Of a DNA stretch of 21,040 bases, positions 4,199 to 15,761 are shown piece by piece. The notes beneath the pieces were generated by a model that worked only from the letters and a program-made list of their open reading frames with translations, searched no databases and had not been told where the DNA came from. The translations under genes were made by a program, and so were the position numbers. Source of the stretch: a virus; IMG/VR virus record IMGVR_UViG_3300023116_000439, positions 1 through 21,040 of that record; one strand, 5' to 3'. How positions within the stretch are numbered: position 1 is the stretch's first letter; each line of letters begins with the position of its first letter.

Positions 4199-4900
4199 AT
4201 GTCTTTACCTGTTTTAAACTCAGCTACTTATAACCTTACCGTACCATCAACAAAGCAAAAAATTAAATACAGACCATTTATAGTAAAAGAAGAGAAAATT
4301 CTTTTACTTGCATTGGAGTCTGAAGATGATATTCAAATTGCAAACGCACTGAAGGATATTATTATTGCTTGTGTTACTACTAAGGATTTTGATTTTGATT
4401 CTCTTGCTACTTTTGATATTGAATATATTTTTCTGAATATTAGATCTAAGTCTGTTGGTGAGCAAATTGAATTAATGATAGTTTGTCCAGATGATAATGA
4501 AACTGAACTGAAAGTTACTATTAATGTAGATGATATCAAAGTAAAATTTGATAAAGAACATACAAATAAAATTCAAATTGAAGATAACCTTTGGGTTGAA
4601 ATGAAATATCCTGGTCTTGAGACATTTTTGAATCCTCAGGAAAATATTGATGATACTTTTGACTTTATTGCAAAGTCTATCAATAGAATTTACAATGAGG
4701 AAGATGTCTGGGATTCTTCTACAACAACAATAGAAGAATTTGTAGGATTTCTTGAAAATATGAGTAGTAAACAATTTAATAGTGTTCAAAAATTCTTTGA
4801 AACAATGCCAACTTTGAAGCATGAGTTAAAATTTAAGAATCCAAAGACAAAAGTCGATTGTGTATATGTTATAGAAGGACTAAGTAATTTTTTCGGATAA
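4199..4900 (+). CDS. gp26: gp26 baseplate hub / tail assembly chaperone-type protein (zero-frame product)
   Basis: 233 residues (T4 gp26 is 208). The hallmark of the T4 baseplate gp26 family is near the N-terminus: K-Y-R-P-F-I-V-K-E-E-K-I-L-L-L-A-L-E-S-E-D-D at about 23-44, then I-x-x-A-L-K-D-I-I. In T4, gp26 is needed for hub formation; in many tailed phages the protein encoded just before the tape measure is a tape-measure chaperone made with a frameshift extension. The last codons read AAT TTT TTC GGA TAA, which contain the slippery heptamer T_TTT_TTC. ATG at 4199 is preceded by TGGAG. The tape-measure gene follows directly after the frameshift extension. Confidence 0.88.
   Translation: MSLPVLNSATYNLTVPSTKQKIKYRPFIVKEEKILLLALESEDDIQIANALKDIIIACVTTKDFDFDSLATFDIEYIFLNIRSKSVGEQIELMIVCPDDNETELKVTINVDDIKVKFDKEHTNKIQIEDNLWVEMKYPGLETFLNPQENIDDTFDFIAKSINRIYNEEDVWDSSTTTIEEFVGFLENMSSKQFNSVQKFFETMPTLKHELKFKNPKTKVDCVYVIEGLSNFFG
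4888..4894 (+). promoter_or_regulatory. Probable -1 ribosomal frameshift site (T_TTT_TTC)
   Basis: The seven bases TTTTTTC lie in the phase X_XXY_YYZ relative to the gp26 frame (codons TTT TTC), two codons before the gp26 stop. A small hairpin, TTCCA (4906-4910) with TGGAA (4919-4923), starts 11 bases downstream and could stimulate slipping, although it is weak. A -1 slip leads into a reading frame that stays open to 5082. Confidence 0.72.
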
Positions 4901-5085
4901 GCCTCTTCCACAATTCATTGGAAAATTACTTTAGGACTAATTTTGCGTTAATGCAGCATCATAAGTATAGTTTACATGAACTTGATGGATTAGTCCCATG
5001 GGAAAAAGATATTTACATTGCACTACTTAAGCAATTTTTGGAAGAGGAAAAACAAAAGATAGAACAGCAACGTAGAAATCGATGA
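4894..5085 (+). CDS. gp26 frameshift extension (tape-measure chaperone C-terminal part)
   Basis: After a -1 slip at 4888-4894 the frame reads R-I-S-L-F-H-N-S-L-E-N-Y-F-R-T-N-F-A-L, then M-Q-H-H-K-Y-S-L-H-E-L, then W-E-K-D-I-Y-I-A-L-L and a charged helical end (63 codons), giving a fusion of 295 residues. The extension reads as normal amphipathic protein from the slip point onward, not only from its first ATG at 4951 (44 codons). The stop overlaps the tape-measure ATG as ATGA at 5082-5085, which argues that ribosomes finish here and re-start on the next gene. By analogy with gpG/gpGT of lambda-like phages it is expected at a low ratio to gp26. An alternative is a separate 44-residue protein from ATG 4951. 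Confidence 0.72.
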   Translation, partial: RISLFHNSLENYFRTNFALMQHHKYSLHELDGLVPWEKDIYIALLKQFLEEEKQKIEQQRRNR

Positions 5086-7568
5086 ATTCCAAGCAATTAG
5101 GATTAACAGAATATAATGACATCATACTGTCTTTGTATGATGCAAATCCTATTGCCAACATTTCAGAGTCAGTAACTAAAACTGAAAAAACACCAGAAGA
5201 TCTAAAACCAGATAAGAAAAACATAGGAACTGGTCTTCTCTATAAAGAAACTATTAGACTGAGAAATGTATCAGTTCTAAATGTAAAACTTGCTGAGAAA
5301 ATATTTAAGTATGAAAAAGAACGATTAACTGCTTTAAAATCTTCATTAAAAACAGGAAAGTCTAGATCTGTAGTTCCTGGTTCCAGTAAGAAGAAAAATA
5401 AAGAAAAGAAAAAAGAGAAGGATGAAGATCGTTCTATAAGAGATTTCCTAAAAGCTCCATTTAGGAAATTATTGAGTAGCATAAGAAAAAAAATATCTGA
5501 TTTTTTCAAAAAACGTTTAATTAATCGCTATAAGAAACTTCCTAAAGCAAGAAGAGATGCGATAAGAAGAAGAAAAAAAGCAATTAATAGATTTAGGAAA
5601 AAAGGTGGAGTTAGGGGATTCTTAAGAAGAAGAAGTGCTTCAGTTTTTAGAAGAATTGTCGGATCAAGAAACGCTGCTAGACTTAGATTATTTAAAATGC
5701 GTGGCGGGTTCCGTGGGGCAGCAACCCGAGCAGGACGCAGAGCATTTTTTGGTGCAGGAAGAAAAGTAAGAAGTGGACTTAGTAGTCTTAACCAACTTAG
5801 AAAATTTGCTCAATTTTCAATCCAGGATGCAAAGGGACCTACTAAAACACCATCAGTTAAGAAACCTGGAATTGGATCTAGAATATCTGACGCTGCATCT
5901 AAATTAAAAAATTCCAAATCAGCACAAGGTATCGCTAAAAATCTTGATAAATTAAAAAATTCTAAATTAGCACAAGGTCTTGGTAAAAATCTTGGTAAAA
6001 TTAGAGGTATTAAGCCAGGTGGGATTGCTTCTGCATTGTTTGCTGGATTTGAATTTGCTGGAAGAAAGTCTGAGGGTCAATCCAATTTACAAGCAGGTGT
6101 AGGAACTGCTGCCTCTACTGCTGGTGGTCTTGCAGGTTTTGCTGCTGGTGCAAAGGGTGGTGCCGCTCTCGGTGCCACGATTGGTACTATCGTTCCTGGT
6201 GCTGGTACTGCAGCTGGTGCAGCAATTGGTGGTCTTTTAGGTGGTCTAGTCGGTGGTTTTGGTGGGTCTTTTATTGGTGGAAAACTTTCTGATGCAGCAA
6301 CTGGAGTTGATGCCCCAAAACAAGCAAAGGATTTAAATTTAAATCAATTTGGAGAAGGTGGAGAAGTAAGTAAACCACAACTCGTTCTTGTGGGTGAGGG
6401 GGGAGAGACTGAGTGGGTCGTTCCTAAAAGTAAACTTGCTTTTTGGTTAGGTAGTAAAGATGCATCTGAATACATTAATTTTGGATTAGGAGATCTTGTT
6501 TCTGGTGCTTCTAAGTATTTAAAATCTTTAGGTGAATCTGGATCTGGCGTTCCCGAATTATCTGCGGCAAAATCTATAGGAGATTCTTCTGATGTAAAAG
6601 TTTCTAACGTCTCTAAACCAAAAATAGATGTAAATGGAAATAATTTAGTAGAAAAGTTTATAGAATTTATTAAGAAAGGATTTGATATAATTCTTGGTCC
6701 TATAAAGAATATAATTGAAAAAGTAACGGGAGTTATTAAAAAGTTCACAGATTTAAGAGATCTACCAGGAAATGCACTTAGATCCGCTGGTAATGTTGTT
6801 TCAAGCATATTTACTCCAAACGCGGCAGCAGCAGAACTTGGAAATGCAAATATTGCAGCAGTATCTTCACCTGAAAATATAAGTTTTGGAAGAGTCACTG
6901 GAAACAGTGGCAGTGTTGCATATGGAGGAAAAGAAAACGCATCATTGTCTGTAGCATATTCTCCTTTCAAAGCATCTGATATTAAATCTAAAAATATATC
7001 AATTGTATCTGGAAAAGGATATAGAAAATCAACTGGTACTAATCATAAAGGATATGATTTACCTGCTCCAGCAGGAACACCTTTGTATGCATATCTTCCT
7101 GGTAAAGTTACAAGAAATTCGGTAATAAGCGGATATGGAAATGCACTTGAATGGGTTGATGAACGTTATAATCAAAAGCATTTCTTTGCCCACATGCAAT
7201 CTTTATCCCCAGTTAAAACTGGACAAAAATTTAAGCAAGGGACTTTGCTTGGTTATGTTGGAGATACTGGCACTCCTGGATCATTCCATTTGCACTGGGA
7301 AATTGGCGGAAACGGATCTGAGATTGATCCTGGTCAGTGGGTTAATACTCACCCATTAAAACCAATAAATAAAGATACTAAAGTTGGCGAAGATCCATTG
7401 GACACTGCTGAAAATGACATGAGAGTGTCGTCTATTTTTGCTAAACCGATTACTCAACCAAGTCCACCGCAATATATTCCAATTCCTATACCCTCAAGTA
7501 ACAAGGCATTTGCGTTAAATACTGTTACTCCTTCCTGGGGTCATGGTGCATTAGTAGGAGGTAATTAG
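5082..7568 (+). CDS. Tape measure protein with C-terminal M23 peptidase domain
   Basis: 828 residues. Order of parts: N-terminal 90 residues of mixed helix; a very basic Lys/Arg-rich stretch at about 95-250; two near-repeats (K-L-K-N-S-K-x-A-Q-G) near 272-300; a Gly/Ala-rich hydrophobic segment about 340-400 of the kind that crosses membranes in tape measures; the motif G-E-G-G-E-V-S-K-P-x-L-V-L-V-G-E-G-G-E-T-E near 425-448, typical of tape-measure proteins; and an M23/LytM endopeptidase domain about 635-770 with H655-x-x-x-D659, H704 and H736-L-H738 as zinc and catalytic residues. Tape measures set tail length and are ejected during infection; the M23 domain would cut host peptidoglycan cross-links. 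Position right after gp26 plus its frameshift extension supports this role. T4 gp29 (590 aa), the equivalent, has no such domain. Confidence 0.82.
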   Translation: MNSKQLGLTEYNDIILSLYDANPIANISESVTKTEKTPEDLKPDKKNIGTGLLYKETIRLRNVSVLNVKLAEKIFKYEKERLTALKSSLKTGKSRSVVPGSSKKKNKEKKKEKDEDRSIRDFLKAPFRKLLSSIRKKISDFFKKRLINRYKKLPKARRDAIRRRKKAINRFRKKGGVRGFLRRRSASVFRRIVGSRNAARLRLFKMRGGFRGAATRAGRRAFFGAGRKVRSGLSSLNQLRKFAQFSIQDAKGPTKTPSVKKPGIGSRISDAASKLKNSKSAQGIAKNLDKLKNSKLAQGLGKNLGKIRGIKPGGIASALFAGFEFAGRKSEGQSNLQAGVGTAASTAGGLAGFAAGAKGGAALGATIGTIVPGAGTAAGAAIGGLLGGLVGGFGGSFIGGKLSDAATGVDAPKQAKDLNLNQFGEGGEVSKPQLVLVGEGGETEWVVPKSKLAFWLGSKDASEYINFGLGDLVSGASKYLKSLGESGSGVPELSAAKSIGDSSDVKVSNVSKPKIDVNGNNLVEKFIEFIKKGFDIILGPIKNIIEKVTGVIKKFTDLRDLPGNALRSAGNVVSSIFTPNAAAAELGNANIAAVSSPENISFGRVTGNSGSVAYGGKENASLSVAYSPFKASDIKSKNISIVSGKGYRKSTGTNHKGYDLPAPAGTPLYAYLPGKVTRNSVISGYGNALEWVDERYNQKHFFAHMQSLSPVKTGQKFKQGTLLGYVGDTGTPGSFHLHWEIGGNGSEIDPGQWVNTHPLKPINKDTKVGEDPLDTAENDMRVSSIFAKPITQPSPPQYIPIPIPSSNKAFALNTVTPSWGHGALVGGN

Positions 7569-11934: not shown

Positions 11935-12147
11935 ATGGAAAACATCGAACAACATATTGAAGCAGACAGGGAAGAATTAAGCAATCCCCAAATTTCTGCA
12001 CAACGTCGTCGTCATATTGAAGACGAGTTGGAACAATTGGAAGCTTATCAAGAAAATCATCCAAATGATACACATGACCCAAATCCATTAGAATTGTATT
12101 GTGATTCGCATCCAGATGCGGCAGAATGTAGAATTTACGAAGATTGA
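11935..12147 (+). CDS. cp12: CP12-like Calvin-cycle regulator
   Basis: 70 residues. The C-terminus, L-E-L-Y-C56-D-S-H-P-D-A-A-E-C65-R-I-Y-E-D, is the CP12 signature (two Cys nine positions apart, then C-R-x-Y-x-D), and the preceding I-E-D-E-L-E-Q-L-E-A-Y aligns with the CP12 core A-W-D-x-V-E-E-L. CP12 is a small redox-sensitive disordered protein that locks GAPDH and phosphoribulokinase in an inactive complex; phage copies are thought to turn carbon fixation down and favour the pentose phosphate pathway. The N-terminal Cys pair of plant and many cyanobacterial forms is absent. It starts one base after the gp27 stop and ends 3 bases before the next gene, so it is co-transcribed with late hub genes. 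Confidence 0.8.
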   Translation: MENIEQHIEADREELSNPQISAQRRRHIEDELEQLEAYQENHPNDTHDPNPLELYCDSHPDAAECRIYED

Positions 12148-12150
12148 TTT

Positions 12151-14886
12151 ATGTTAGGAGCAGCACCAACTTTAGAATCTAATTACTGGTTTGGCGCCCA
12201 AGGCAATCGTCTATGGGTTGGTCAAGTTGAATGTGATGGAATAAATTCAATTGATAATAGCAAACTAGAAGATCCCGATGGTTCTAATCGAGTAAAGGTT
12301 AGAATAATGGGATACCATACTCGCAGTAGAGATAAACTTAAACCAAATGAATTACCATGGGCATCTGTAATGATGCCAGCAACTGAAACTGTAACAAGAG
12401 ATGGTGCTGGCACTGTTCACAGTTTGATTAATGGTATGTGGGTTCTTGGTTTGTTTATGGATGGAGAAAGTGCTCAACAACCAGTGGTTTTGGGGTCTCT
12501 TGGAATCGTTGACAAAGACCAACCATATCAAGATAGATTGGATGCTCTTGGACTGAATAACGATTATGTACCACCAGATAGAGTCTTAGAGCAAAGAGAC
12601 TCATTAAAAAGTCCTACCGGTAATTCTCAAGCAAATCGTGGTGGAACCAAGGGACTGCCATCGTCTGCAGATAGACGCCAAAAATCTAATGAACAAGTTA
12701 CACTGGGAGTTGCCAATGCTAAATGTGGTCCTAGACCGGAAAATGAATTTACTAGAATTCTAACCGATTTATTTAAATTTTTATCAAATAATGAAAGAGT
12801 TGGGAACAAAGTAGTAGATAAACTTACTGGAAATGTAGTTAAATCTGGTAAAATTATTTCTGCCTATGTGGGAAGACTTGCAAATGCAGTTAATGGTCTT
12901 TTAGGAGATACCAAAGCACTTGTAGTAAGAGAACTTAAAAAGTATCTTCAAAAGTTTTTTCAACCATTAATTCAAGCATTATTGCCAAAACAATCGGAAC
13001 GTGGTCCGATAACTCAAGGAATTGTAAAAGCACAGGACATACTTTTTGAAGCTATTAAATGTATCTTCCAGACAATCTTTGAGAAAGTAGTTAATTTAAT
13101 TATTAATATTGTAACAAAACTGGTAGATGATGTACTCAATACTGCATTTTGTCAAGTAAGCAATATTTTAAAAGGAATTGTTAAAGAAATCCAAGGAGGA
13201 ATTACTAAAGCATTAAAAGCACTTGGTCAAGTTTTTTCTTTTATTTCTAAACTTGGAAATTTTGGTGGAGGATTTATTAAAGCACTTGGACAGTTGCTTA
13301 AACTTTTTTGCGATGGTAAACTTTCTTGTGTTTTAGGTATTGGTGAATTTACCACTGGGGTTGGGGAAAAACCAGATAATTCTGTAGATGCATTTTTAAA
13401 TAATTTAGAAACTTTTGGAGGAGCACCGAATGCATTAAATGTTGGATTATATGGTAGTGATTCTTTTCTTTCCGGTGTGGAATCTACTAAGCTTATAGGT
13501 AGTGATGGAAAAGTTGTTACTGGATCTTTAGATTGCAATAGAGCAACATCGTTTAATTTTCCAAACATTCCGAAAGTATTTTTTACTGGAATAACTAAGA
13601 ATCTTAATAACTTCTCATTCAATTCCGATACTGGTAGTATCGTTGTATCTCCAAATGGAAATCGATCGGGAACTTTTAACGGTGCAGATTCTAGTACATT
13701 TGGATCTGGTGGTACTGGAAATGGCACAGGAGTGAATGTTGGAACTCCTTTAACTGTTAATGGCGTTGCCGTATCTTCTGGTGGAACCGGAGGAACTCCA
13801 CTAACTGTAGGATCAACTGGAGGAACTCCTGTAATTTTTAACGGATTGCCTGTAGTTGGGGGAGGAACTGGAGGAACTTCTATAACTTCTAATGGTGAAT
13901 TTGTTACAAGTGGTAGTTTACCTATAACAATTGGTGCAACTGGAGGAACACCAGTAAGTGTTGGAGGAACTGGAGGTAGTAATTTGACTGCTGATGGAAA
14001 TCTTGTAACTGTAGGTGGAACCGGAGGAAATACTGTTATTATTGGACTAGTTGTTGGCACTGGTTCTGGTACAGGAAGTGGTACTGCTGGATTTACTGGA
14101 GGTACTACTGGTAATCCAGAAACTTTAGAGGATGCATTTAATGATAATCCGTATCCGCCAAGTAGTTATGACGGAAATATAAGTGGTCCTGGTAGTAATG
14201 ATGATATTCCTAGAGGAATTCCTGCTATAAATTCTTTTGGAGAAGTTGTAGGTGTTGTTATTACTAATCCGGGATTTGGTTTAGATACCCCACCAAATGT
14301 CACGATATATCCATTTCCCGGATGGGGAGGTGGTGCTGAAGGGTTTACAACTTTAGATAATAATGGAGGAGTTGCTAGTGTTGTTATAACAAATACTGGC
14401 AATGGATACCCATATTTTAATGGATCTGTTTCAAATTCTGATGTTGTTCCTACTAATCAAAATGGAGATCCAGATTATACTAAGATTAGTGGAGCTTATG
14501 TTGAAAATGAATTTTGGTTAGGTATAATTACAGAAGAAAATCCTCCAGAAGTTATTCGTACTGGTGGTGGATATGACGAAACTTGTGCTATTATTGTCGA
14601 ACCTGGAGAGGATGAAGTTAATGATGTAATTTTACCAGAGTTAAAACCAATTATTGAAGATGGATTTTTAACTGGTGTTCAGGTAATAAAACCTGGATTT
14701 GGATTTACTGTCCTTCCAAAAATGTTTATGTCTTGTGGATCTTTAGGAGTTGGACTTGGAGATCAAAGGCGAGCAAAAATAATACCAACATTGAAATACA
14801 TTCCAAGAAAAGATGCTAATCTTTATCTTACAAATTATAATGAATTTAGAGAATATATTGATTGCGTTGGGCATCCAGGAGAATAA
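12151..14886 (+). CDS. gp5: gp5-like baseplate hub protein with N-terminal OB fold
   Basis: 911 residues. Residues about 14-130 look like the gp5/VgrG OB-fold that docks on gp27: N-R-L-W-V-G-Q-V, N-R-V-K-V-R-I-M-G-Y-H, L-P-W-A-S-V-M-M-P, a G-M-W-V-L-G-L-F-M-D-G segment and Q-Q-P-V-V-L-G-S-L-G. No T4-type lysozyme domain follows. Instead: a helical, partly hydrophobic region about 190-410; a Gly/Thr-rich repeat region about 505-655 (recurrent G-G-T-G-G-T, S-T-G-G-T-P); then beta-rich repeats (V-V-G-V-V-I-T-N-P-G-F-G, V-A-S-V-V-I-T-N-T-G-N-G, T-G-V-Q-V-I-K-P-G-F-G) and a C-terminal domain ending E-Y-I-D-C-V-G-H-P-G-E. The hub role is well supported; function of the long C-terminal part is unknown. 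Confidence 0.75.
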   Translation: MLGAAPTLESNYWFGAQGNRLWVGQVECDGINSIDNSKLEDPDGSNRVKVRIMGYHTRSRDKLKPNELPWASVMMPATETVTRDGAGTVHSLINGMWVLGLFMDGESAQQPVVLGSLGIVDKDQPYQDRLDALGLNNDYVPPDRVLEQRDSLKSPTGNSQANRGGTKGLPSSADRRQKSNEQVTLGVANAKCGPRPENEFTRILTDLFKFLSNNERVGNKVVDKLTGNVVKSGKIISAYVGRLANAVNGLLGDTKALVVRELKKYLQKFFQPLIQALLPKQSERGPITQGIVKAQDILFEAIKCIFQTIFEKVVNLIINIVTKLVDDVLNTAFCQVSNILKGIVKEIQGGITKALKALGQVFSFISKLGNFGGGFIKALGQLLKLFCDGKLSCVLGIGEFTTGVGEKPDNSVDAFLNNLETFGGAPNALNVGLYGSDSFLSGVESTKLIGSDGKVVTGSLDCNRATSFNFPNIPKVFFTGITKNLNNFSFNSDTGSIVVSPNGNRSGTFNGADSSTFGSGGTGNGTGVNVGTPLTVNGVAVSSGGTGGTPLTVGSTGGTPVIFNGLPVVGGGTGGTSITSNGEFVTSGSLPITIGATGGTPVSVGGTGGSNLTADGNLVTVGGTGGNTVIIGLVVGTGSGTGSGTAGFTGGTTGNPETLEDAFNDNPYPPSSYDGNISGPGSNDDIPRGIPAINSFGEVVGVVITNPGFGLDTPPNVTIYPFPGWGGGAEGFTTLDNNGGVASVVITNTGNGYPYFNGSVSNSDVVPTNQNGDPDYTKISGAYVENEFWLGIITEENPPEVIRTGGGYDETCAIIVEPGEDEVNDVILPELKPIIEDGFLTGVQVIKPGFGFTVLPKMFMSCGSLGVGLGDQRRAKIIPTLKYIPRKDANLYLTNYNEFREYIDCVGHPGE
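13690..14110 (+). repeat. Degenerate Gly/Thr-rich coding repeat in the gp5-like gene
   Basis: Recurring 9-15 bp blocks such as GGTGGAACCGGAGGAACT and CAACTGGAGGAAC encode G-G-T-G-G-T motifs alternating with short beta strands (P-L-T-V, N-G-V-A-V, I-T-S-N-G). The copies are diverged, unlike the perfect repeat at 9177. Confidence 0.7.
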
Positions 14887-14888
14887 CT

Positions 14889-15761
14889 ATGGCATTAGAT
14901 GACCGGACAAATAAGGCACTAGAAAAAATTGCCAAAAAAAGTAAAATAAAATATCCTTTAAATAAGGCAAAAACCACTTCAATTGGACATAAGTGGGAAA
15001 TGAATGAAAGTCCAGGTGAAGAATACATTAATTTACGACATGGTATTACCGGTGCTTATATTAAAATGCACGCCAGCGGTGATGTCGATATACAGAGTCC
15101 AGTAAGAGATGTTAATATTGTTGCAGCTAGGCATGTAAATGTAAAAGCAGGTTCTAATGTAGACATTAACAAAAAGGATTTAAGCGATAGACTTTCTATC
15201 AATGTTGTTGGAAATGCTCATTTACTTGTTGAAGGTGACATGCATCATCATGTAAAAGGCGATAGGTATGACCGGGTTGATGGTAAGTATTTTTTGACTG
15301 TTGGCGATTCTACTTCAATTAATAGTAATGATCTTGGCATCAATTGCCTGGGTAATTATCAAGTTGAAGCAAACAAAATGTCAACTTCAGGTCAAAGTAT
15401 TGAAACTAATGTAATTGGTGGCGGAGCAATTGCTTTTAACTATAGTGGATCTTTCAGTTTAAATGCTATTACTCCAGGATCTACAATTAGTTTCAATTCA
15501 GCGGGTAATATTGAATTTGTTGCTGCTCAAGATTTTCAACTTAAAATTGGCGGAAGTATATCTAACAAGGTTGGAGGAAAGGTAGATTTTCAAATTGCTG
15601 GGGTCCCACTTACAAAACCCTTGACACCGCTCCAACCTGCCTTTACAGTAAATACTGCCCTTGGTGGAATCAGTTTGAATGCTCTGGTTGGCAAAGGAAA
15701 CTTCTTTGCTGGTGGTCCCTCTCTCGATGTGGACTGTTTGACAGGTGTCTACCTCAACTAA
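14889..15761 (+). CDS. Beta-helical spike/needle protein (gp5 C-terminal-like)
   Basis: 290 residues from ATG 14889, two bases after the gp5-like stop; an in-frame TTG at 14862 would overlap that gene and is rejected. After a basic helical start, residues from about 45 are a long run of short beta strands with the V-x-G-x-x-x-x-x-V spacing of gp5C/VgrG triple-stranded beta-helices (I-N-V-V-G-N-A-H-L-L-V-E-G-D-M, V-K-G-D-R-Y-D-R-V-D-G, L-T-V-G-D-S-T-S-I-N). H-H-H after D-M could bind metal. I infer that this is the membrane-piercing spike, encoded separately from the OB-fold hub protein. It is the last gene of the tail operon. Confidence 0.72.
   Translation: MALDDRTNKALEKIAKKSKIKYPLNKAKTTSIGHKWEMNESPGEEYINLRHGITGAYIKMHASGDVDIQSPVRDVNIVAARHVNVKAGSNVDINKKDLSDRLSINVVGNAHLLVEGDMHHHVKGDRYDRVDGKYFLTVGDSTSINSNDLGINCLGNYQVEANKMSTSGQSIETNVIGGGAIAFNYSGSFSLNAITPGSTISFNSAGNIEFVAAQDFQLKIGGSISNKVGGKVDFQIAGVPLTKPLTPLQPAFTVNTALGGISLNALVGKGNFFAGGPSLDVDCLTGVYLN

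Follow-up and report, generated by a model that had tools for sequence, protein, structure and literature searches.

The virus record IMGVR_UViG_3300023116_000439, from a cyanophage, carries, within its positions 1-21,040 (the whole stretch of 21,040 nucleotides analysed here, hereafter the window), a homolog of T4 gene 26 on the plus strand at 4199-4900, whose last codons contain the slippery heptamer T_TTT_TTC at 4888-4894. We propose, with a probability of about 0.95, that this gp26 is a short tail assembly chaperone (TAC-N) comparable to the G protein of phage lambda, and that a -1 ribosomal slip at the heptamer yields a 295-residue gp26-gp51 fusion (TAC-NC, GT-like) with a chaperone role. 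Underlying the proposal are the established sequence, phase and conservation of the heptamer, a -1 frame that is under coding selection as soon as the slip site is passed, and a fusion homologous to T4 gp51.

The gp26 protein of 233 residues (C-terminus ...GLSNFFG*) belongs to the T4 gp26 family: it matches PF12322 (T4_baseplate) with an E-value of 2.7e-65 (220.5 bits against a cut-off of 24.5) and the baseplate hub profile phrog_150 with an E-value of 2.9e-68. Its final codons, AAT TTT TTC GGA TAA, place the heptamer (U_UUU_UUC in the messenger) in exact X_XXY_YYZ phase two codons 5' of the TAA stop at 4898-4900, as an earlier sequence-only reading of this DNA had described. The heptamer of lambda gpG/gpGT, G_GGA_AAG, is a different one. 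In the window, the -1 frame is closed directly 5' of the heptamer by a TAA at 4885-4887, stays open from 4888 through 5082 and terminates at a TGA (5083-5085, plus strand) overlapping the ATG at 5082 of the next gene (ATGA). The resulting extension (4894-5085) adds 63 codons to 232 residues of gp26, hence 295 residues; here too the sequence-only reading had counted correctly. When the codons of gp26 are shuffled, an in-phase T_TTT_TTN arises within the last 20 codons with a frequency of 5.3%, and base shuffling yields 63 open downstream codons at a rate of 0.4%. The eight window genes checked contain two more T6 heptamers in phase, at 5501 and 15290. Taken alone, the window is only suggestive of a frameshift site, and it is the comparison with related loci that makes the evidence strong.

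For this comparison, gp26 loci were collected from viral contigs using the gp26 sequences of the window, S-PM2, Ah1, S-RIM2 and S-N03 as queries, and named phages were added, the closest of which shares 52% identity with the window gp26. The full set comprises 276 loci; analyses of selection, start codons and Shine-Dalgarno (SD) motifs were performed on 49 non-redundant relatives. T_TTT_TTN is present in the same phase in 272/276 loci, and this conservation places the heptamer far beyond chance. It lies 10 nt 5' of the stop in 247 of the 272 and ends in C in 268; among the 228 unique heptamer-bearing sequences, 224 read T_TTT_TTC, two T_TTT_TTT and two T_TTT_TTG. The -1 extension spans 56-68 codons in all 268 complete cases, the 4 others running off contig ends. 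Heptamer, phase and extension are therefore conserved across gp26 loci, as the sequence-only reading had predicted. That reading had named two kinds of relatives that would speak against it: premature -1-frame stops occur in none of the related heptamer-bearing loci, and absence of the heptamer is confined to four Ackermannviridae-type exceptions described below. The carriers include Kyanoviridae, Eurybiavirus, Pelagibacter phage Mosig, Pseudomonas pf16, Stenotrophomonas Marzo, Rhizobium phages (with T_TTT_TTG in Pootjesviridae), Aeromonas Ah1 and Vibrio D491s, for whose gp26 the scan of viral contigs returned no relatives.

The heptamer could be a mere by-product of a conserved Phe-Phe pair in an AT-rich genome, followed by a decayed or unused open reading frame (ORF); the shuffle frequency of T_TTT_TTN and the two further heptamers in window genes would fit this explanation. 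It is contradicted by the invariance of the wobble bases and by the maintenance of -1 coding across the lineages examined, and we regard it as almost certainly wrong. The codon 5' of Phe-Phe ends in T in 49/49 relatives, against 33.3 expected from codon use, with a residue that varies between S, N, D, G and A. The first slip Phe is TTT in 49/49 (68% elsewhere) and the second is TTC in 48/49. Over the 10 codons that follow the slip, divergence at codon positions 1/2/3 of the -1 frame amounts to 0.41/0.26/0.58, similar to the 0.38/0.24/0.55 of the gp26 body; translation in the -1 frame therefore begins at the slip site rather than at a later ATG alone. Protein-level selection thus begins where the sequence-only reading had expected it. 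In none of the 49 relatives does an ATG, GTG or TTG occur in the interval from the upstream -1 stop to the heptamer.

The same data bear on the GenBank annotation of relatives such as S-RSM4, P-HM2 and S-RIM2, in which gp51 is a separate gene. According to this scheme, gp51 would be a small protein translated from an internal start by reinitiation after the gp26 stop; in the window, the start would be the ATG at 4951-4953 (plus strand) of a possible 44-codon ORF. An ATG does stand at this column, codon 20 of the extension, in 41/49 relatives. However, it is missing in the remaining 8 and an SD-like motif is never in reach, the codons 5' of it are conserved as protein, and the annotated starts are inconsistent among phages, with very different ORF lengths. 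A separate gp51 would also leave the fixed heptamer and its wobble bases unexplained. We consider this alternative very improbable, and ATG 4951 is probably an internal Met codon and no start.

Homology to T4 links the two parts of the proposed fusion. The extension, corresponding to the C-terminal part of gp51 (TAC-C), falls in the T4 gp51 family: its residues 2-64 match positions 56-118 of the 121 positions of phrog_634 (baseplate hub assembly catalyst) with an E-value of 1.5e-28. When the fused family is used as a profile, its match to T4 gp26 ends at the junction, and its match to T4 gp51 runs colinearly across the junction, over positions 151-282. Since T4 gp51 aligns across the junction, the fusion is the gp51-like protein and gp26 its short form, which supports the earlier assignment of gp26 as G-like and the fusion as GT-like. 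T4 gp26 is homologous end to end to the window gp26, and the C-terminal half of T4 gp51 is homologous across the fusion junction. In contrast to the window phage, T4 encodes gp26 and gp51 as separate genes on opposite strands, gp51 being one continuous ORF, and the slip site is absent: T4 gp26 ends in GAG TTC TTT GAG, where the Phe-Phe codons TTC TTT are non-slippery. By these alignments, the long form has its continuous-ORF counterpart in T4 gp51, and the short form corresponds to T4 gp26. The sequence-only reading was accordingly right that T4 uses two separate genes, but T4 gp51 corresponds to the whole long form and not to a separate T domain.

Candidate stimulators of slippage accompany the site. 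The SD-like element GAAGGA (4874-4879, plus strand), at least 9 nt 5' of the heptamer, is likely a weak stimulator. An SD-like tetramer starts 11-15 nt 5' of the heptamer in 47/49 relatives, and the Glu codon in this column is GAG in 32/45 versus 28% elsewhere in gp26, the highest of the Glu columns tested. Predicted anti-SD pairing at the element reaches -7.3 kcal/mol versus a synonymous expectation of -5.6 kcal/mol, and the element appears to be under selection in these comparisons. Downstream, many relatives have strong hairpins that begin some 6-9 nt past the site (S-PM2, -13.5 kcal/mol; P-SSM2, -14.6; locus L058, -17.3), versus about -2 kcal/mol for synonymous recodings of these regions. 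RNAalifold returned no common downstream structure from 40 junctions because the hairpins are lineage-specific. Those of loci L058, L030, L097, L098, L044, L004, L067 and L003 have 6-17 bp and the same spacing of about 6-9 nt from the site. In the S-PM2 group, covariation is modest, one pair changing from C-G to U-A in 5/14 sequences. These variable stimulators provide a natural series for investigating how -1 frameshifting is tuned in cyanobacterial hosts.

The fusion could also come from RNA polymerase slippage on the T6 run: a six-T run could slip, and one added T would give, from a slipped mRNA, the same protein as a ribosomal slip. Transcriptional slippage usually needs runs of 8 or more, for which T6 is short. 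Moreover, the run is not lengthened, C coming next in 224/228 unique sequences, its codon phase is fixed, and the accompanying SD-like element and hairpins would act on ribosomes. We judge this origin even less probable than a separate gp51.

Under the ribosomal mechanism that we favour, a fraction of ribosomes with UUU in the P site and UUC in the A site of U_UUU_UUC (4888-4894) would slip back one base and read UUU UUU. These ribosomes would bypass the stop at 4898 and add 63 codons, giving the TAC-NC fusion of 295 residues. The upstream internal SD-like element would probably aid slippage; in many relatives a downstream hairpin, weak in the window, would do so as well. Produced in a set ratio, the short and long forms would attach to the tape measure protein that the next gene encodes, would bring in tail tube subunits, and would both be absent from the finished virion. 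We infer that slippage takes place, at some rate, and that the two forms act as chaperones in the window phage.

Several observations weigh against this proposal. The gp26 loci share a phylogeny, so that the counts given above are not independent trials. The small hairpin that the sequence-only reading had placed 11 bases after the slip site does not stand out: the TCCA/TGGA stem, roughly 14 nt downstream of the heptamer, is predicted at -2.0 kcal/mol, and the stability of the 60 nt downstream of the site does not exceed that of synonymous recodings (z -0.20). The AlphaFold2 model of gp26 (predicted local distance difference test, pLDDT, 86) finds its best Protein Data Bank (PDB) fold match in the HK97 tail assembly chaperone 2ob9, whose chains rank 1 and 3, below significance (E-values 0.65 and 1.3; best probability 0.63; TM score 0.41-0.43 by target). 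The model of the extension is helical (pLDDT 83) and Foldseek returned no fold match for it; a sequence search of the PDB with the gp26 profile gave chance matches only. Finally, the next gene (5082-7568, plus strand, 828 residues) is a probable tape measure protein by its position and composition. It carries an M23 peptidase domain (PF01551, residues 654-750), and its phrog matches to tape measure families arise partly via this domain.

The heptamer is absent in four loci only, those of Vibrio phage 207E48.1 and its relative D528, Klebsiella T765 and Erwinia phiEa2809; the last two are Ackermannviridae, and 207E48.1 is listed as such. These Ackermannviridae-type loci (L090, L093, L094 and L095) are without T_TTT_TTN, yet keep a -1 extension open for 47-58 codons past the stop, and in the two Vibrio phages the gp26 stop overlaps a start codon (TAATG). 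Judging from this arrangement, these loci may yield the long form by another route, or the C-domain on its own. Four further loci (L089, L092, L099 and L088) combine the slippery heptamer with a -1-frame ATG overlapping the gp26 stop (TGATG/TAATG); this ATG is annotated as the gp51 start in the first three, and in L088 it opens a gene annotated as a hypothetical protein. A tentative scenario, to which we give slightly less than an even chance, is that the slip site is near-universal in the gp26 family with stimulators that turn over, and that the Ackermannviridae-type loci lost the heptamer and kept the extension, frameshifting perhaps being replaced by other routes to the long form or the C-domain.

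Frameshifting is reportedly conserved in several T4-like groups, and T4 is said to use genes 26 and 51. Tail assembly chaperones of T4-like phages were identified by Vladimirov, Gautam and Davidson (Virology 2022, 566:9-15); the gene family (T4 gp26/gp51) and its short and long forms are the same as in the window. Two later articles cite this work, one for T4-like phages with separate short and fused genes (PMC10885494), the other in connection with polyT slippery sequences known in the TAC-N genes of T4-like phages (PMC12846349). Frameshifted chaperones in T4-like phages are thus already known, and the window locus is a correct, unannotated further case. A study of 2016 described G-T frameshifting as conserved in long-tailed phages with T4 as the exception, lambda making a major short gpG and a minor long gpGT like the pair proposed here (PMC5009743). 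The TAC locus of Pseudomonas phage Adele and the Vandenendeviridae likewise has a polyT -1 site and an extension earlier annotated as a separate hypothetical gene, but it belongs to another family and uses a GTTTTT motif (PMC12846349). The large comparative set supports the separate genes of T4 as one arrangement among T4-like phages, and a lambda-type strategy in cyanophages and several other T4-like groups. The separate small gp51 genes annotated in cyanophage GenBank records are probably artefacts, for which a joined gp26-gp51 feature should be substituted. Separate gp51 annotations with inconsistent starts are found in GU075905, FM207411, KX349240, KJ019033, AJ630128, NC_006883 and MT162466.

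Elsewhere in the window, a gp5-like baseplate hub protein is split in two genes (12151-14886 and 14889-15761), apparently likewise in P-HM1 and MED4-213, whose gp5-like matches also span two annotated ORFs. A second frameshift at the overlap of these ORFs (14862-14886) was considered and rejected, as the second ORF has its own ATG at 14889 after the SD sequence AGGAG. At 11935-12147, a gene encoding a CP12 domain (PF02672, E-value 8.8e-14), a cyanobacterial regulator of carbon fixation, lies inside the tail gene cluster.
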